Shown: positions 40,631 to 51,250 of the stretch, piece by piece
Layout: each line of letters opens with the position of its first letter
Numbering within the stretch: the stretch's first letter is position 1
Virus record (IMG/VR): IMGVR_UViG_3300031251_000961
Coordinates: 1-55,064 of that record
Source of the DNA: a virus
Direction: 5' to 3' (one strand)
DNA length: 55,064 nt
Position numbers and translations under genes: made by a program
Notes under the pieces: generated by a model
The model's input: the letters and a program-made list of their open reading frames with translations, nothing else
Databases searched by the model: none
Told to the model about the DNA's origin: nothing

Positions 40631-41389
40631 TTAGATGATTGCAATTCTGTTATGCTTTTTATTATTTACAATCTGTTCAAGATTGTAGACGTAATTTTTA
40701 TACGAGAGATTTTTAACCAGCATTTCAGGATACTTTTTATAGGCATCAACCACATCACTTACAGCAATTTTGCCAGCCTTCATTATCCTGTAAATAGCAA
40801 CTACAAAAGAGCGATCTTTCCAATAAGGAAAGGCACTGAATAACTGGCAATTGTCGGCTATTAAAACAGCTTCATCCCATTTTGAAACCTCAAACCTTCC
40901 CTTTTGGAATTTTTCATATAGTGTTGCGTTGCTACCTTCTACGCCAGGTGTACCGGTTTCAAGCAAACGCAAACAAGTGCCAACGTTAATTTTATAGATA
41001 TCTAAAAAATCTTTCAGTTTTATGTAGTGTTCATTACCTTGATTTACATAACAGTTCACAAAATTTTCAGAGGTCCATTTTTCAACATTGCTATTTACCC
41101 CTGCGATATCAACCATACTTTTATCTTCGGTCACCAGTATATAATATACAGGGCGCTTCAATTTTTTACAGATGAAAAAGCGGTGCTGGCCATCCAGAAT
41201 TACCAGGCTATCATTTTCCACCTTTACCTGAATGGGATAATATTTAAGCATATCATTGCCGGTTTCTATTTCTTTGATGATACGCTTAATCTTCTGTTCA
41301 TTTAAAGGCCGGTTACCTTTTATAAACTCAAAGATTTTATAGTTGTCAGTTTGAAAAACAGTTATGGTTGATACCAGGTGAGTAATCAT
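40631..41389 (-). CDS. ParB-like nuclease-domain protein (PRTRC-associated)
   Basis: A 252-aa protein. The N-terminal ParB/Srx-like domain has NRPLNEQKIKRIIKEIETGN and the signature ILDGQHRFFICKKLKRPVYY (GxHRxxA-like motif as DGQHRF). The C-terminal half is helical. Placed 1 bp after the ThiF-like gene, it completes the PRTRC block, where a ParB-like protein is a defining member. Its role may be DNA binding or nucleotide-dependent regulation rather than partition. Confidence 0.78.
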   Translation of the reverse strand: MITHLVSTITVFQTDNYKIFEFIKGNRPLNEQKIKRIIKEIETGNDMLKYYPIQVKVENDSLVILDGQHRFFICKKLKRPVYYILVTEDKSMVDIAGVNSNVEKWTSENFVNCYVNQGNEHYIKLKDFLDIYKINVGTCLRLLETGTPGVEGSNATLYEKFQKGRFEVSKWDEAVLIADNCQLFSAFPYWKDRSFVVAIYRIMKAGKIAVSDVVDAYKKYPEMLVKNLSYKNYVYNLEQIVNNKKHNRIAII

Positions 41390-41390
41390 T

Positions 41391-42164
41391 TTATTGTATT
41401 TTAATTGGGTTAGTTACAAATGTTTCCAGGTTTACAAAACAACCATGGTGCTTTATCTTGTGATCACGAAGCAGCTGCCATAAAAGGCTTGTGCCGAATT
41501 CCGCTAAAACTGTATTGATGCATAGATCCTGTTTTTCCAATGCCTCTGCAATAGAGCAGCTCGGACCGCTCTTATCATCCTTATCGATCATTTTTTTAAT
41601 CTGCGGAAACTTCTTAATGACGTTTGGTAATTCAGCTTTAGTTTTAAATTCACTTGTCGGCTGCTCTATTTTTTGGAATGTACCTAGTACGCATTGGCCA
41701 GCCTTTTGAGTGTTACCGAGATCCAGCCAGTAGTATTGAATATTTGGAGGCGCTGCATTTTTTTGATTGCGGTCAGATAATTTTAAATCAAGCATTACCC
41801 GTGATTTTGCAGTATCAACACAAGTGATCAGAATGTTACTCGTTCCTTTCTGACCGCCATAATATTCCGGCACTGCTTCCCACTCGTAGCCAAAAAACCG
41901 GTTAATCCTTGTAGTGAGCACTATAGCTTTATTCAATCCCAAATCCGCATCACTAAAAAGTTGCCGACCCTTATTTGCTGCAGTAACAATATCATCATCC
42001 CAGCTGCGAACATGCAGACCAGGGTGGCCAAGCCCTACAAGGCCTTCATTTATTCTTGCCAGATTGGTAAGCATCCTGCAACCGGTACCGCCAACGCCTA
42101 CCAGGTCAACCGTGATCTTATGGCCTGGCTGAATTAAATAGCTATGGGTATAGTGAATCTTCAT
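41391..42164 (-). CDS. PRTRC system ThiF/E1-like protein
   Basis: A 257-aa protein of the ThiF/MoeB superfamily. The nucleotide-binding glycine motif is DLVGVGGTGCRMLTNLAR (residues 20-37), with a Rossmann acidic residue in VRSWDDDIV. The stretch SGPSCSIAEALEKQDLCINT is the PRTRC-specific motif I recall (PSCSxAEALxkQDLxIN). It overlaps the PRTRC B gene by 4 bp. Predicted to adenylate a C-terminal carboxylate; the substrate in PRTRC systems is unknown. Confidence 0.85.
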   Translation of the reverse strand: MKIHYTHSYLIQPGHKITVDLVGVGGTGCRMLTNLARINEGLVGLGHPGLHVRSWDDDIVTAANKGRQLFSDADLGLNKAIVLTTRINRFFGYEWEAVPEYYGGQKGTSNILITCVDTAKSRVMLDLKLSDRNQKNAAPPNIQYYWLDLGNTQKAGQCVLGTFQKIEQPTSEFKTKAELPNVIKKFPQIKKMIDKDDKSGPSCSIAEALEKQDLCINTVLAEFGTSLLWQLLRDHKIKHHGCFVNLETFVTNPIKIQ

Positions 42165-42892
42165 TTTAAAATATTTATAAGAGTTTTGCGTTGGGTTTCT
42201 TTTAATTCATTGGGCAGTGAAGACCATTTTAAGCGGCCTTTGCTTTTCACCAAACGTGTCCATAGTTTTGCAAGACTTGAAGTGGTAGGATTAAGTGAAC
42301 CGTTTAAGTGGGCAAATTCTGATAGCCAAAACATATCTTCCCAGTATTTAATCACATTGGTGAAAGTTTTATCAGTGGGTTTCTTAACTTTTGCATTACC
42401 TAAGCATACCTCTCCGGGATTATTTATGTTATGAAAAGGAGCACGATATATTTTTGTTTTTTCTGTTGGGCGATCGTCCGACTTTAATGCAAAAACTGAA
42501 AGCTCATTTCTCTCTACCAAATAAACTAGCGCCGGTACTGAAGCCTTTCCGGATGGAATTTTCAGAACTTTGGCAAAATGCATGTACCTTGTTTCAGCCG
42601 GATGGTACCACACCAGCCTGTAATTACCACCCGTAAGCGGCATGTAAAATAAAACCTGCTCTGAAATGAAACCAGATATCTGCGAACGCTCTTTTTTTTC
42701 TTCATAAAACAACTCAACTATTTCAGCAAGTGTTTCCTGCATCAAGGGCTTTCCTTCAAGCAGCTGGCCATTTTCATTAACATGGTGGCTTTCCAGATAA
42801 TATTCGTTGACTCCTGCATTATCTGATTTGTAAACAACAATTGATAATGCAGGTTTTAAATTTGTTTGAAATGCTTCGGTTAAATCGTTCAT
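42161..42892 (-). CDS. PRTRC system protein B
   Basis: A 243-aa protein matching PRTRC B in pattern: SIVVYKSDNAGVNEYYLESH near the start, LVWYHPAETRYMHFAKVLKI in the middle, and APFHNINNPGEVCLGNAKVK near residue 180. It overlaps both neighbours by ATGA-type junctions (upstream F-like gene and downstream ThiF). Biochemical function is unknown. Confidence 0.8.
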   Translation of the reverse strand: MNDLTEAFQTNLKPALSIVVYKSDNAGVNEYYLESHHVNENGQLLEGKPLMQETLAEIVELFYEEKKERSQISGFISEQVLFYMPLTGGNYRLVWYHPAETRYMHFAKVLKIPSGKASVPALVYLVERNELSVFALKSDDRPTEKTKIYRAPFHNINNPGEVCLGNAKVKKPTDKTFTNVIKYWEDMFWLSEFAHLNGSLNPTTSSLAKLWTRLVKSKGRLKWSSLPNELKETQRKTLINILK

Positions 42893-44121
42893 AGCAAATC
42901 TCTTTTATTGTAATCAGTATATTTTTCAGTGATCTTTTGGAACTGCGCCTGCAGTAAGGAAAGCTCTTTTGGAAAATCAAGATTGTCTGTTAAATTTTCC
43001 ATCTTTAAACCGTGTACCCCGGATGGTAAGAATAAACCGGCAAGGGTTGGTGGTGTGACACCAATCTGACGGGCCAGATCTATAAGGTGATTGCCGTGCG
43101 TAGCTGAGTAATGATCGGACCAATCCCAGCATATTGTTAGCTGTTGATCAAAACCCATTTCTCCTTCATCATGTCCATCAGCAATAGTGTAACAGAAGTC
43201 GCCAATGTTACAAGGCCTTTTCATTAGTCCGCATGCATTTTTCATGAACTGCACCAAAGGATTTTGATATGGGAAAAGTTTTAGGGATTTTAATAACGAT
43301 GCAGCTGTTCTTACCGGAGCCTGTTTAATTTTTACCATAAACTTTGACGCCGCACCAGTTGCGTATTCTTTCATCGTAGTGCTTATATCAGCAATACGCT
43401 TTTCCATATCAGCCCTGGTGTAACCAAGTTTTTCAAATTGCTCTTGCGGAATATTTTGCTTCATTACTCCTTTCAATTCATCGAGATAACTCGAAAGCTC
43501 ATACTGGGATCCTTCCATTTGGTAATCCCACCAGGTTGGTATCTTGCATCTTTCGATAAATGACTTTAAGAAAATAACAAAGAAATCATGAAGCTTCCTG
43601 TTACGCTTTTGAAGATCTTCCACCAAATTTTTGATATCAAAAAAATGCCAGTAGTTCGTAGGGAATTTACATTCCTTATAAACTGTGAAATGATGGCCAA
43701 GCCTTTTTGATTTTTTATTTTGGTGCGAATCAATATTTACACTGAATCCTGCAGGGCAGATATTTTTCTTGAAGCTTTCCAGTAATTCAGATACTGCAGA
43801 TCGTGAAGTATCTGAACGTTTGTAAACAATCCTCTTGCACTTAACAAGATCTGCGCCATGGTTATAACATTTTACCAAATCAGAATAGATTTCATACAAC
43901 GCCTGCATTTCTTTATCAGAATCCTTGGTCGGTTGTAAATCACTCCACCTTTTTGGTTTAATGTTTAAGGCAAAAAGGGAATCTGCAACGATCTTGGAAG
44001 CTGGCGCCTCATTCTTTGGTCCATGCAAAGACGTGCGTCCAATTCCCTTTTTGTTTTTTCTTCTCTTAAGATTAACCCGAGACCTCTGTGCAATTGCTGT
44101 ATGCTTAGTTTGCGCTGGCAT
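42889..44121 (-). CDS. PRTRC-cluster protein, F-like
   Basis: A 410-aa protein with a basic N-terminal tail (RVNLKRRKNKKGIGR), a helical core and a C-terminal GLFLPSGVHGLKMENLTDN. It lies exactly between PRTRC C and B, where protein F is found in other clusters, and overlaps B by 4 bp. Sequence identity with PRTRC F is not clear to me, so the label rests on position. Confidence 0.5.
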   Translation of the reverse strand: MPAQTKHTAIAQRSRVNLKRRKNKKGIGRTSLHGPKNEAPASKIVADSLFALNIKPKRWSDLQPTKDSDKEMQALYEIYSDLVKCYNHGADLVKCKRIVYKRSDTSRSAVSELLESFKKNICPAGFSVNIDSHQNKKSKRLGHHFTVYKECKFPTNYWHFFDIKNLVEDLQKRNRKLHDFFVIFLKSFIERCKIPTWWDYQMEGSQYELSSYLDELKGVMKQNIPQEQFEKLGYTRADMEKRIADISTTMKEYATGAASKFMVKIKQAPVRTAASLLKSLKLFPYQNPLVQFMKNACGLMKRPCNIGDFCYTIADGHDEGEMGFDQQLTICWDWSDHYSATHGNHLIDLARQIGVTPPTLAGLFLPSGVHGLKMENLTDNLDFPKELSLLQAQFQKITEKYTDYNKRDLL

Positions 44122-44143
44122 GTAATTGATTTTTTCATAATGA

Positions 44144-44353
44144 TTAAGCTTTTGTACCTACCGTAGTTCTTGCCTTGTAGGTGGTAGTATTACCCGTTAC
44201 AACAGGTTCATCTACACTGGCAGTAGTTAACTCGGGGTATTGCCCACTATAAAAATTTAAAACTTCCTGAACTGAAAAATCAGGATTTGGATCTTCGAGA
44301 GTAACCTTGGTACCGTTTTTATTGAAAGTGAATTGCCTTTTAGTTTCTGACAT
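44144..44353 (-). CDS. PRTRC system protein C
   Basis: A 69-aa protein that fits PRTRC C closely: RQFTFNKNGTKVTLEDPNPD at the start, SVQEVLNFYSGQYPELTTAS, and the typical ending TTTYKARTTVGTKA. A small beta-grasp-like fold (ubiquitin-like) has been suggested for this family, which would make it a natural substrate of the ThiF partner. That link is inference. Confidence 0.85.
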   Translation of the reverse strand: MSETKRQFTFNKNGTKVTLEDPNPDFSVQEVLNFYSGQYPELTTASVDEPVVTGNTTTYKARTTVGTKA

Positions 44354-44379
44354 GGTTAGTATATTTTAAAAGTTATTGT

Positions 44380-45579
44380 TTAATCTTTATCCGGTACGCC
44401 TGCAAACAGATCCACAGGCGGTAATCTTTTTGCTGCTTGCTTTTTCTCAACACCTTTATGTTTTTGCACTGGTTTTTTAATAGCCTTCTTTACAACAGGC
44501 GTCTTTTTTGCTATTGGTTTCTTTGCTATTTTTTTAGATAAAGTTTTTTTAACGGATTTGCTGTTGCTTCTTTTTTGTTTAAAATGTTTAGCTACTTCAT
44601 TTGGTTGAAGATCTTCACTAATTTCAGTTTTTTCAGGTTCAACAAAAGAAGCAATTGCATTTTTTATTTTTTCTGCAAACCCATTGAAGAAATCCTTATC
44701 AATTTGCTCAGGGGAATCTGTCAGCAGTATAGGAGGGAAACCTATTGAAACTGCACCAGGTATAAAATTTATAGTGAGCTTACCATTCTTATCGTATACA
44801 CGTATAGTGCAATCCTTATAACCTGCAGCGCTCAGCTGCTGAAAGAAATTAGTAAGCACTTCCGGTTGATCAGTTGAAGTAACACTGGTAGTTGGTTCCT
44901 TTATTTCAACACACGCTGAGCAAAGATCATCTTCGATCCATGTGCATGGCTCTCCAGTCTTTTCAATGCATTGCCTGCAGTTATGTTCAGTGCACTGGCA
45001 AACACGGCAACGCTTTAATGCATTAACCCACTGCTTTGCTGCCTCAATATTTTGATTGATGGATGCAGCGTTATTGATTTCAAAGTAAATGGTATGTACC
45101 GGTATCAGCGGAGTGGTGTCAACCAAAGCAATATCTGGGTAAATAAACAATTGCGTTAATCCTGTTTTTTCATAAAGCCCCCCTTCATAAAAAACATAAC
45201 CATTGTATTTGCGAAGGAAATTTTCTTTAGGTTTTGCAACATCAACTTTTACTTCCGGAGCTACAGTCACCAAAGGATTTTCTTCCAGTATCTTTTTATC
45301 AATGAGTTTACCGGTTACTGCGCATACACCATAGCTGCCATCCTTAATCCTGTCCAAAGCCTTGTTAAGATTGATCCTCTGTTCCTTGTATGAATCACGG
45401 GACTCCTCTAAATCTGATATGTCATGCTTCTCCGCTTTATTAATTATACGTTCCAGTTTATCAATCTCCAGTTGCGCCTTTTCGAATTTAGCATTGATGA
45501 TAATTTCAAATTCCTGCAGATCCTCTTCACTATATCTTTCCAATGGAATGGAAGTTTGGGTTAATTCTTTTTTCTTCAT
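44380..45579 (-). CDS. PRTRC protein E fused to DksA-like and Cys-rich domains
   Basis: Start set at the ATG 45579 (an in-frame GTG precedes it). Domains in order for 399 aa: a DksA/TraR-like coiled coil (about 14-106), ending in LDRIKDGSYGVCAVTGKLID with only one of the usual Cys pair; a linker with FLRKYNGYVFYEGGLYEKTG; a Cys cluster (191-223: CRVCQCTEHNCRQC, then CTWIEDDLCSACV) as in zinc-binding phage proteins; the PRTRC E-like part (242-314: FFQQLSAAGYKDCTIRVYDK, DSPEQIDKDF); and a Lys-rich tail ending DLFAGVPDKD. Confidence 0.72.
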   Translation of the reverse strand: MKKKELTQTSIPLERYSEEDLQEFEIIINAKFEKAQLEIDKLERIINKAEKHDISDLEESRDSYKEQRINLNKALDRIKDGSYGVCAVTGKLIDKKILEENPLVTVAPEVKVDVAKPKENFLRKYNGYVFYEGGLYEKTGLTQLFIYPDIALVDTTPLIPVHTIYFEINNAASINQNIEAAKQWVNALKRCRVCQCTEHNCRQCIEKTGEPCTWIEDDLCSACVEIKEPTTSVTSTDQPEVLTNFFQQLSAAGYKDCTIRVYDKNGKLTINFIPGAVSIGFPPILLTDSPEQIDKDFFNGFAEKIKNAIASFVEPEKTEISEDLQPNEVAKHFKQKRSNSKSVKKTLSKKIAKKPIAKKTPVVKKAIKKPVQKHKGVEKKQAAKRLPPVDLFAGVPDKD

Positions 45580-45600
45580 CACAAGTATTTTTAAAAGAGT

Positions 45601-46952: not shown

Positions 46953-47154
46953 TTAACTGTCTTTTCAATGAATTAAGCTGACCACTCAATAAAAGGTATT
47001 CATCAAATCCCTTTTCATAAGAAAGGTTTATAGAAAACAGAGCCTTACTTAAATTCTTTATTTCACTGCGTAATTCGTCTGCTGTTTTCATAACTGCTTT
47101 TTCAAATACCATTACCTGGTTTACAACATCGTATAGCTGAGTATCTTTAATCAT
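46924..47154 (-). CDS. Small helical protein next to the DGR reverse transcriptase, possible accessory factor
   Basis: Start set at the ATG 47154 (MIKDTQLYDVVNQVMVFEKA); the frame also opens at a TTG three codons upstream. The 76-aa product is almost entirely helical with heptad-like spacing (ELRSEIKNLSKALFSINLSY, LSGQLNSLKRQLNDIE). DGR accessory proteins (Avd) are small helical bundles, but usually longer (about 110-130 aa). A link is only suggested by adjacency. Confidence 0.5.
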   Translation of the reverse strand: MIKDTQLYDVVNQVMVFEKAVMKTADELRSEIKNLSKALFSINLSYEKGFDEYLLLSGQLNSLKRQLNDIESCVSR

Positions 47155-47443
47155 AGAATTCAAAATGTTTGTTTACCCTTTTTATCTTCGCTTTAAAAGG
47201 AAAATCTTCGTCTTTTAATTGCCTTAGTGGGGCCATTAAAAAAGTAGAGCTGGTGAAAATCACACGATCCTTTCCTTCAAATTTTATCTGGATGTAAAGA
47301 CAATCCTGATCAATCACTTTTTTTGATGGTTTTATTTCAAAGAATTCAACAATAATTTCTTTATCTAAAATTTCCTCAATTGAAATACTGTCACCAACAA
47401 ACGACCTTTTTGCCACCACTCCCAATTCGCTAAATTTCCTCAT
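47147..47443 (-). CDS. Small OB/SSB-like protein coupled to the DGR reverse transcriptase
   Basis: A 98-aa beta-rich protein (IVEFFEIKPSKKVIDQDCLY, IQIKFEGKDRVIFTSSTFLM) overlapping the RT stop by ATGA and the next gene by 8 bp. The pattern (IkpSKk, cLxIQxxxxGxxxVxFTsSxxLm, dxdFPFxakI) matches a small protein class I recall in Bacteroidota phages, with an OB-like fold plausible. Coupling to RT suggests it helps handle single-stranded nucleic acid, which is inference. Confidence 0.6.
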   Translation of the reverse strand: MRKFSELGVVAKRSFVGDSISIEEILDKEIIVEFFEIKPSKKVIDQDCLYIQIKFEGKDRVIFTSSTFLMAPLRQLKDEDFPFKAKIKRVNKHFEFYD

Positions 47444-48390
47444 GCCCGTAATTTTTTTAATAGATTTTTACAATCGGCCCATTTGCACCACCCTTCATAA
47501 GAAGCTGCGGAGGCCTGGTTAATTCCTTTGGCTACTTTTCGTGCAAAATTTTGTTTTATACTTTTCCGAATAAGCGTGAAATAATGATAGAAGACATAAC
47601 CTATAAAATCTATCCCCCTTGCTTCAACCGGAAACACCTGCCAGTTATCTTTAACCTGCAGTTTTAAATTATTCCACAGATACTCTTTAAAATCAACTAA
47701 AAGTTGGTGAAGGAATTCTTTACTTCCGGATAGAACAACGATATCATCTGCATACCTGAAATAATATTTTACTCCTTTTATTTCTTTAACCCAGTGATCA
47801 AAATAAGTGAGATAGAAATTTGCAAAATATTGGCTAAGATAATTTCCGATGGGAACACCAGGCGCACTGTCAATGATGCCATCAAGCAACCAAATAAGAT
47901 CCTGATCTTTTATTTTGCGCCTCAGCTGCTTCTTAAGAATTCTGTGATCAATATTTGGATAAAACTTTTTTATATCAAGCTTCAAACAATAGGTAGTTCC
48001 CGGTACATCTTTCAGCGATTCCTTTAATGCATCAGCAGCAGCCTTAATACCTTTACCCTTTATGCAGCTGTATGTATCTGTTGTAAAACAAGCTACAAAA
48101 ATCGGTTCCATTATCAGCATAATTGCATGATGGACGATCCTGTCCGGATAATAGGGAAGCCTTGAAATTTCACGCTCCTTCTTCTCCATTATCGTGAATG
48201 TGCTATAGGCAGAAGTTTGGTAGGTTTTATTTGCCAGGCTTTCATGCAGGCTTAAAATATTTACTTCTTTATTTCTATCATGCAACACTATTCCATATTG
48301 CTTACCCTTGCCTTTTCTGGCAATCGCATCTGCAACCATAAGGTTTTCGATGCTGCATATTTCCTGGTATAAATTGTTTTTCCTTTTCAA
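47440..48390 (-). CDS. Diversity-generating retroelement reverse transcriptase
   Basis: A 316-aa RT of the DGR type. Motifs: RT1 region SRLPYYPDRIVHHAI (77-90), first catalytic Asp139 in CLKLDIKKFYPNID, domain 4 IGNYLSQ (181-187), which is the DGR-specific [ILV]GxxxSQ in place of the group II intron QGxxxSP, and the YADD box (213-216). The conserved N-terminus (NLYQEICSIENL, ARKGKGKQYG) shows the true start is TTG at 48390, since a TAG lies ten codons upstream and the first ATG (48339) would delete conserved residues. AAAGGA precedes the TTG. It copies TR RNA into adenine-mutagenised cDNA for retrohoming into the two VR. Confidence 0.95.
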   Translation of the reverse strand: MKRKNNLYQEICSIENLMVADAIARKGKGKQYGIVLHDRNKEVNILSLHESLANKTYQTSAYSTFTIMEKKEREISRLPYYPDRIVHHAIMLIMEPIFVACFTTDTYSCIKGKGIKAAADALKESLKDVPGTTYCLKLDIKKFYPNIDHRILKKQLRRKIKDQDLIWLLDGIIDSAPGVPIGNYLSQYFANFYLTYFDHWVKEIKGVKYYFRYADDIVVLSGSKEFLHQLLVDFKEYLWNNLKLQVKDNWQVFPVEARGIDFIGYVFYHYFTLIRKSIKQNFARKVAKGINQASAASYEGWCKWADCKNLLKKLRA

Positions 48391-48496
48391 TGTTTCCTTT
48401 GCTTTTAAAAGATCGCCTTCCTACATTCAGCAGTACCAACGCTCTTTTTAAATAAGTCATTTTTTGGCAAGAGCCACGGCCTATATCGCTAAAATA

Positions 48497-48572
48497 TTTG
48501 CATAGTCGGGGGCTGCAATTCGTATTCGTATTCCAGTTATCGTAGTTGTTGTACTGGAGCCTGAGACCTGAA
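48497..48572 (-). repeat. DGR template repeat (TR)
   Basis: A 76-bp non-coding template between the target genes and the RT gene, same strand as both, with its lower end 107 bp upstream of the RT start codon. On the minus strand it contains five AAY (Asn) codons plus other A-bearing codons spaced through the read-through frame (Y-N-N-Y-D-N-W-N-T-N-T-N-C-S-P-R). VR1 aligns to 48506-48572 and VR2 to 48497-48570. All 34 differences fall on TR adenines. Confidence 0.95.
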
Positions 48573-48608
48573 CAACCGTCAGCCAATGCGATACACAACC
48601 ATATTTAT

Positions 48609-48995
48609 TTACGTCAACAAATCAATCATGTCCTGCAAAAAGTATTTTGCAATATGTTTTGCAACTGCTATTGAAACAAAGGCAAAGCGGGGGCCGCAAA
48701 ACGTAAACGTACCCCAGAAACCGTAGTAGTAGTACCGGAGCCCGAGACCCGAAGGCTGGCTTTCGTCTACTACCACATCCCACCATATTTCATACTTGAT
48801 TTCATTACGATCGGCATAGTTTAGTTTCTTTCCGTTGCAATATGGAATTACAAGATTCATTTTGAAATTTGATATTGCCTGGCGCTTATCTTTTTCTTCA
48901 TAAACAGAAGTATCTGGTAAACGCAGCGGATCTCTTCCAGTAGCTTCACAGAATTCTTCCCATGTTTCTGGTAGCTTAATTTTTGCAGTTGCCAT
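48609..48995 (-). CDS. DGR variable (target) protein 1
   Basis: A 128-aa soluble protein with no signal peptide. The N-terminal part (ETWEEFCEATGRDPLRLPDT) and middle (YADRNEIKYEIWWDV) match a very common Bacteroidota phage protein class (LN.GW.PDW.N.NQxKYyPWF) that ends in a variable C-terminal patch, which I recall as DGR targets. The variable patch covers residues about 82-103 (GLGLRYYYYGFWGTFTFCGP). Relative to TR it shows R-to-G, Q-to-R, N-to-Y twice, D-to-G, N-to-F three times, N-to-G and S-to-G. It probably presents a ligand-binding surface. It lies 2 bp downstream of target 2. Confidence 0.88.
   Translation of the reverse strand: MATAKIKLPETWEEFCEATGRDPLRLPDTSVYEEKDKRQAISNFKMNLVIPYCNGKKLNYADRNEIKYEIWWDVVVDESQPSGLGLRYYYYGFWGTFTFCGPRFAFVSIAVAKHIAKYFLQDMIDLLT
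48687..48753 (-). repeat. DGR variable repeat VR1
   Basis: A 67-bp block aligned without gaps to TR 48506-48572. By my alignment 16 of the 22 TR adenines differ (to G, T or C) and none of the 45 other bases do. Alignment breaks just after the CCCCCG stretch at the 3' end, which marks the likely initiation-of-mutagenic-homology side. Confidence 0.93.
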
Positions 48996-48997
48996 TG

Positions 48998-49465
48998 TTA
49001 TAGTTTTGAGTTTAAATATGTGATGTAATAAGGTTCAAGAATCTTCACACCATGAACCATGGTATCATAAGAAAGATAGCAAAGGCGGGGGCCGCAACCC
49101 GTAGCCGTAAGCCAGTAATCGCAGTAGTAGTACCGGAGCCCGAGACCCGCTTTATAGATAAACCTAGGTTCGTATTTATCTTGGTTCGAATCACTATGAT
49201 CAACTACTTTACCATCCAGCAAAACATCAATGGTGTGTTCTATAATCCTTTTAGCAGTTTCATAGGGTGCATCATCTGGACGGGTAAGGCCTTCTATTGT
49301 TTTTCCTGCAATAGCCAGCGCTGCTTCAACAGTTGGCGTCCGGTCAATGATGTTTCCAAGTGAAAGACCTTCCGGAAAAATCTGCTCTAACTTTGCCTTG
49401 AAAGCAGGATCGGCGGTAGAGTACATCGCCCTTAAAGTCTTTTCGTCAAATTTTAATTCGCTCAT
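48998..49465 (-). CDS. DGR variable (target) protein 2
   Basis: A 155-aa protein. The N-terminal 95 residues (helical, FDEKTLRAMYSTADPAFKAK, TVEAALAIAGKTIEGLTRPD) are unrelated in sequence to target 1, while the C-terminal part (DKYEPRF then AGLGLRYYYCDYWLTATGCG, PRLCYLSYDT) is homologous. The variable patch spans about residues 106-130. Relative to TR: N-to-Y three times, Y-to-C, N-to-L, N-to-A, N-to-G, R-to-G, Q-to-R and S-to-G. A second diversified receptor under the same template. Confidence 0.88.
   Translation of the reverse strand: MSELKFDEKTLRAMYSTADPAFKAKLEQIFPEGLSLGNIIDRTPTVEAALAIAGKTIEGLTRPDDAPYETAKRIIEHTIDVLLDGKVVDHSDSNQDKYEPRFIYKAGLGLRYYYCDYWLTATGCGPRLCYLSYDTMVHGVKILEPYYITYLNSKL
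49076..49149 (-). repeat. DGR variable repeat VR2
   Basis: A 74-bp block aligned without gaps to TR 48497-48570. By my alignment 18 of 26 TR adenines differ and none of the 48 other bases do. The homology extends 9 bases further 3' than in VR1. Three substitutions near the 5' end (A to G) are identical in VR1 and VR2, so they may be under selection. Confidence 0.93.
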
Positions 49466-51080: not shown

Positions 51081-51178
51081 AATAGAATTTTTATAATGCC
51101 GGTCTTACCCGGCTGTAGCAATTGCCACCAATTGCAGCACATTTAAAGGATCACTTGCCATAACATTGCTTGATCTTG

Positions 51179-51250
51179 GTGCGAGGAAGGGAATCGAACC
51201 CTTACGTCTCAGGTTATGAGCCTAAGCTTCTACCGTTAAATTACCTCACG
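51179..51250 (-). tRNA. tRNA-Met (anticodon CAT)
   Basis: A cloverleaf can be drawn on the minus strand: acceptor CGTGAGG/CCTCGCA (first pair C/A mismatched), a short D arm (three pairs), anticodon stem TTAGG/CCTGA with loop CTCATAA, variable loop of 5 nt, and T arm AAGGG/CCCTT with loop TTCGATT. CCA is not encoded. Anticodon CAT reads Met, or AUA-Ile if modified to lysidine. It is isolated among prophage genes, about 110 bases downstream of a terminator. The mismatch and weak D stem may mean a divergent phage tRNA. Confidence 0.82.

Follow-up and report, generated by a model that had tools for sequence, protein, structure and literature searches.

A diversity-generating retroelement of a variant type, with a short template repeat and two small tandem targets, in a predicted temperate phage

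Described retroelements and the locus in the window

The diversity-generating retroelement (DGR) of the Bordetella phage BPP-1 (bRT-Avd-Mtd) comprises a template repeat (TR) located beside the reverse transcriptase (RT) gene, adenine mutagenesis, a structured spacer, and a zone of 3' differences between TR and the variable repeat (VR), termed IMH/IMH*, where a 21-bp IMH element, mismatched between TR and VR at five positions, sets the direction (PMC3240598). According to surveys, phage DGRs are mainly tail-directed, with lectin-fold VRs (PMC8144416), and they are mostly read as host-range switches; an Avd-like neighbour accompanies ~62% of DGR RTs (PMC8934634). In Quimbyvirus one of the two targets is non-structural and lies in a defence-like island (Benler 2021, PMC8008677), with the tail fibre targeted as well. 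In LoVEphage a member of the target family described below is found in a defence-like region and shares its TR with a tail fibre that is also a target; from gene content, we infer that Quimbyvirus and LoVEphage share the target-family gene.

The locus analysed here is located in IMGVR_UViG_3300031251_000961, a 55,064-bp IMG/VR contig that was considered over its full length (hereafter "the window"). Its integrase and repressor genes support the prediction of a temperate phage, one of Bacteroidota; the earlier note spoke of a prophage, of which the temperate character is backed by these genes, but not the prophage state of the record. A tRNA-Met gene (51178-51250, minus strand) is found close to the lysogeny region. 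The window element resembles that of BPP-1 in the RT type, the position of TR beside the RT gene, the adenine mutagenesis, the 3' difference zone and the structured spacer, but differs from it in the lack of Avd, the short TR, VRs that end ~26 codons ahead of the stop codon, two small non-tail targets, adenine edge marks on both sides, and no detected VR hairpin. Unlike in Quimbyvirus and LoVEphage, only small paralogues are targeted. With a probability of roughly 80%, we consider it a genuine DGR, though a variant one, in which a short TR (~75 nt) serves two tandem paralogues with likely intracellular-binding products, with an RT-coupled protein, a structured spacer and no Avd found. While the general DGR type is known, the combination of a short TR with edge marks, an RT-coupled protein where Avd would be expected, a spacer resembling RT-17 and exclusively small early targets appears to be novel. 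The features, all on the minus strand, are:

47147..47443, minus: RT-coupled accessory protein, 98 aa (phrog_19665), its start overlapping the RT stop (ATGA)
47440..48390, minus: reverse transcriptase of the DGR type, 316 aa, starting at TTG (motifs, profile and structure matches, tree)
48390..48481, minus: structured TR-RT spacer RNA (Rfam RT-17 match, E 7.5e-5, 37.6 bits; covariation)
48497..48572, minus: template repeat TR (repeat scan)
48503..48514, minus: 3' edge marks (both VRs have G for A48514, C for A48506 and T for A48503)
48519..48552, minus: hypermutable core of TR (17 adenines; 21/34 altered across the two VRs)
48555..48569, minus: 5' edge marks (A48569, A48562 and A48555 are G in both VRs)
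48609..48995, minus: target gene B, 128 aa, paralogue of A, contains VR1
48687..48753, minus: VR1 (16/22 A altered, 0/45 non-A)
48998..49465, minus: target gene A, 155 aa, contains VR2 (N-terminal family profile, E 5e-11)
49076..49149, minus: VR2 (18/26 A altered, 0/48 non-A)

The RT reveals the motifs IGNYLSQ (GxxxSQ) and YADD (YxDD), and matches phrog_1423 with an E-value of 3.5e-120. Its best match in the PDB is 8ub7 (E 1.8e-41; next match 1.2e-14), which we take to be the BPP-1 DGR RT. In the phylogeny, an analysis that the earlier note had proposed, the window RT is grouped with BPP-1 and other DGR RTs, across a 97/97 branch from four non-DGR RTs (L199, L200, L201 and L211, the entire outgroup, as the other presumed non-DGR rows turned out to be DGR-like); the deep joins have long branches. 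Judged by these motifs, matches and placement, it is a DGR RT, as had been claimed, and it lies next to a TR and two VRs. The start codon is TTG in the window and ATG in most relatives.

The spacer between TR and the RT gene is matched end to end by the Rfam family RT-17 (RF03020), which likewise lies directly before the RT gene; the score of 37.6 bits is just below the cut-off of 40.4, whereas the nearest relative (L002) passes it with 41.0. The spacer is about 113-139 nt long in nearly all loci, and its covariation score is 0.652 vs. 0.228 +/- 0.017 for shuffled and at most 0.133 for slid alignments. On these grounds it is a conserved structured RNA related to RT-17, which suggests a likely role for this Rfam RNA of unstated function.

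Repeats, edge marks and activity in related loci

The repeat scan, in which TR candidates from 46.5-50.5 kb were compared with the whole window on all diagonals and both strands, returned exactly two alignments, VR1 (67 nt) and VR2 (74 nt). Realignment of 48497-48572 with 48687-48753 and 49076-49149 reproduced the coordinates and counts of the earlier note exactly (16/67 for VR1, 18/74 for VR2): all 34 differences fall on TR adenines and none on the 93 non-adenine positions. The probability that all differences fall on A by chance is 6.6e-11 and 2.1e-11 for the two VRs, jointly 1.4e-21. In VR1/VR2, the positions of the six AAY codons of TR encode Tyr/Tyr, Tyr/Tyr, Phe/Tyr, Gly/Leu, Phe/Ala and Phe/Gly, in agreement with the AAY-rich template described before. 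The scan revealed neither a third VR nor one in a tail gene in the 55-kb window, the next best site matching 53% of the non-A positions. A hairpin or cruciform 3' of the VR, as in BPP-1-type elements, did not rise above the shuffled background at 209 sites of relatives, and the 6-7 bp stems near the window VRs are of the same order as that background.

The adenine changes are of two kinds, as became apparent when 147 TR/VR pairs of related loci were aligned by position. At the VR counterparts of interior TR adenines all four bases are found, while the edge sites are nearly always one fixed base: the three 5' edge sites have G in 49/49, 37/37 and 69/72 position-aligned pairs, and the 3' edge has G in 142/147, then either G in 130/131 or, one site further, C in 16/16, and lastly T in 90/95. 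We therefore read the edge sites as fixed marks that distinguish TR from VR rather than as products of mutagenesis. In the window, 21/34 changes fall in the core (48519-48552) and 13/34 at or beyond TR-edge adenines (for VR1, A48503 lies beyond the cleanly aligned stretch), so that not all 34 record mutagenesis. The past mutagenic retrohoming asserted in the earlier note is thus supported by the DGR-type RT, by the adenine-only core changes and by the population variation in close relatives, but not by these 13 changes. The 3' edge marks flank a GCCCCCG run, together with which they may be IMH/IMH*-like. The edge marks are likely the counterpart of the BPP-1 IMH, yet they are placed at adenines and on both sides.

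Searches with the RT, through which the relatives of the window element were reached, yielded 80 loci from IMG/VR and 69 from genomes. Flavobacterium, Chryseobacterium, Sphingobacterium and other Bacteroidota are the sources of the closer loci. Short TR/VR repeats are present in 70/80 IMG/VR loci, with at least 2 VRs in 64, the VRs lying typically ~190 and 560-630 bp before TR; non-A difference counts in the relatives are biased low, as the repeat scan penalises such differences. Two pairs of near-identical relatives are informative: L028 and L033 differ at 12/38 VR-A sites, 0/117 VR non-A sites, 0/77 TR sites and 1/4358 sites outside, and L047 and L048 at 11/48 VR-A sites vs. 14/10864 outside. 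The VR-A changes of these population pairs are all in the core, with 0 at edge sites. Differences between near-identical relatives are thus almost confined to core adenines of the VRs, which shows natural activity of the lineage. An exact TR search found no sister strain or second copy of the window phage, hence activity is established for its cousins, and for the window phage itself past activity only.

Target genes and the RT-coupled protein

The targets A and B are tandem paralogues (33% identity across 94 aa). Direct searches found no relatives of either, because the window targets are divergent, and in a direct PHROG scan these two alone fall short of phrog_11581 (function unknown), which is matched by 70/73 members of the target family. 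However, an N-terminal profile of the family, from which the window proteins and the VR had been left out, recovers both targets at an E-value of about 5e-11, and there is therefore homology to the phrog_11581 family outside the VR. The targets are 120-160 aa long, without an obvious signal or tail domain, and the VR ends ~26 codons ahead of the stop codon. In the AlphaFold model of target A (mean pLDDT 84), the VR forms a loop of low confidence and the remainder is helical; the model has no fold match in the PDB, and BFVD gives only uncharacterised phage proteins. Altogether, the sequences point to two small non-tail proteins, of a family without a name, encoded in the early/replication region, an arrangement that recurs in about 70 related phage loci. 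The family may already form an unnamed cluster in an earlier DGR catalogue, with which the IMG/VR contigs may overlap. L237 and L238 carry target-family members, with no RT in the short stretch examined, one of them having a degenerate VR-like segment.

The lectin-type ends of tail fibres match the small targets over 27 VR columns only (E 3.6e-5). In LoVEphage and Versailles a single TR diversifies a tail fibre together with a distant target-family member, annotated in Versailles as a "tail protein", which fits a VR module shared by two scaffolds.

Analysis of the genomic neighborhood places the window DGR in the early/replication region, near a sliding clamp gene and a PRTRC cassette, far from the structural genes at about 12-30 kb. 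The cassette (40631-45582) includes a ThiF-like member, and its B and C members match NCBIfam. In a relative (G012) the DGR is found beside a recombination exonuclease, the tail genes being encoded on the other strand. No coding tail VR was found in twelve contigs searched whole; three further distal VRs (in G006, G015 and G018) all lie within additional small paralogues, and a distal VR-like site in G013 was rejected as it has no sensible reading frame.

The accessory family is represented by ~100-aa proteins that follow the RT or are fused to it in 73/73 loci checked (one cut at a contig end), with fusions in L061, L088, L108, L109, L224 and L228; the profile was built by position, as fused genes otherwise pull it into RTs. 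It is found in 2/249 Flavobacteriaceae genomes, the same 2 that carry the targets, and has 6 credible matches in 395 Bacteroidia, each adjoining or fused to an RT. A match in L229, with no RT nearby and lipoprotein-like frames, was judged a chance hit. The family was not found in the sister tail-directed DGRs, nor in the LoVEphage stretches searched. Two distant DGRs (L250 and L251), however, have this ~100-aa domain fused to the RT, and their targets are the ends of giant tail adhesins. The model of the accessory protein (pLDDT 93.5) is a beta-barrel whose strands are ordered as in OB barrels, and the fold search gave many weak OB-type matches, none significant (best E 0.09); that the barrel binds nucleic acids is our guess.

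The bAvd profile (PF22296) found no match in the window and was above its cut-off in 0/22 relatives, while the BPP-1 control was positive, and phmmer and Pfam searches likewise detected no Avd. Given its ~62% co-occurrence with DGR RTs, the absence of Avd alone is not strange. The element had been described as a complete DGR, which holds for the DGR-type RT and the adenine-only core changes, but canonical Avd is absent and the RT-coupled protein stands in its place, making this ~100-aa protein a candidate replacement for Avd.

Proposed mechanism and competing readings

The repeats show an adenine-specific transfer from one TR to two VRs. By analogy with BPP-1 (PMC12875486, PMC3240598), the RT and its partner would bind the spacer RNA, which would recruit the RT complex; cDNA synthesis would begin close to the TR 3' edge, and the core of the cDNA would replace that of the VR, with misincorporation opposite A presumably occurring during cDNA synthesis. 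The edge marks (A in TR; G, C or T in VR) would set the limits of the core that is exchanged and prevent overwriting of TR, and would thus be natural marks that define this core. More tentatively, the targets could be early cytosolic proteins with a variable loop for binding an intracellular partner that itself varies; as this partner, a host defence factor or a protein of a competing phage would be more plausible than a cell-surface receptor.

An RT derived from a group II intron, a retron or an antiphage RT system, with coincidental repeats, could be imagined from weak cross-matches to group II and DRT models, yet these are far under the curated cut-off where one exists, and the adenine-only repeats (P 1e-21) together with the GxxxSQ motif, the BPP-1 structure as best match and the RT placement in the tree rule it out. 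We find it improbable that the DGR has decayed, i.e. that mutation has ceased in the window phage after past activity: the TTG start of the RT, the missing Avd and the divergence of the window targets from the rest of the family would agree with it, but the RT, the accessory protein and both targets are intact open frames, the spacer RNA is kept and the relatives are active.

Unlikely, if somewhat less so, is an ordinary tropism-switching DGR, with the two small proteins serving as virion-attached receptor binders. The targets of known phage DGRs are mostly tail proteins (PMC8144416), the VR is homologous to the C-type lectin end of tail fibres, and LoVEphage and Versailles use one TR for a tail fibre and a small paralogue; however, the homology to tail fibres is confined to the VR, and the size and early location of the targets, their lack of an obvious signal or tail domain and the strand of the G012 DGR argue against it. 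For the targets of the variant DGR, an intracellular role is probably the best reading, although it is the part that we propose most cautiously. It is conceivable, at somewhat less than even odds, that the window represents a distinct DGR lineage without tail diversification, with an OB-like partner replacing Avd, an RT-17-like guide RNA, and tandem small intracellular early targets on a helical non-lectin scaffold that act as a counter-defence or inhibitor repertoire. For a widespread Bacteroidota phage lineage in which all detected targets are small early proteins, targeted hypermutation would also work in the infected cell, where defence acts; hypermutation by phages thus probably extends to proteins with a function within the host cell.

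Two reference records deserve comment. The LoVEphage RT (L155, 6293-7108) is annotated as a short 272-aa frame, which agrees with the report of a frameshifted RT in Quimbyvirus; yet the LoVEphage VRs reveal adenine-only changes. In the BPP-1 record (L156, 33229-33558) a "variable region 2" is annotated in the early gene bbp36; the protein consists of GTATAGYR-type repeats, and this region looks unrelated to a DGR VR.
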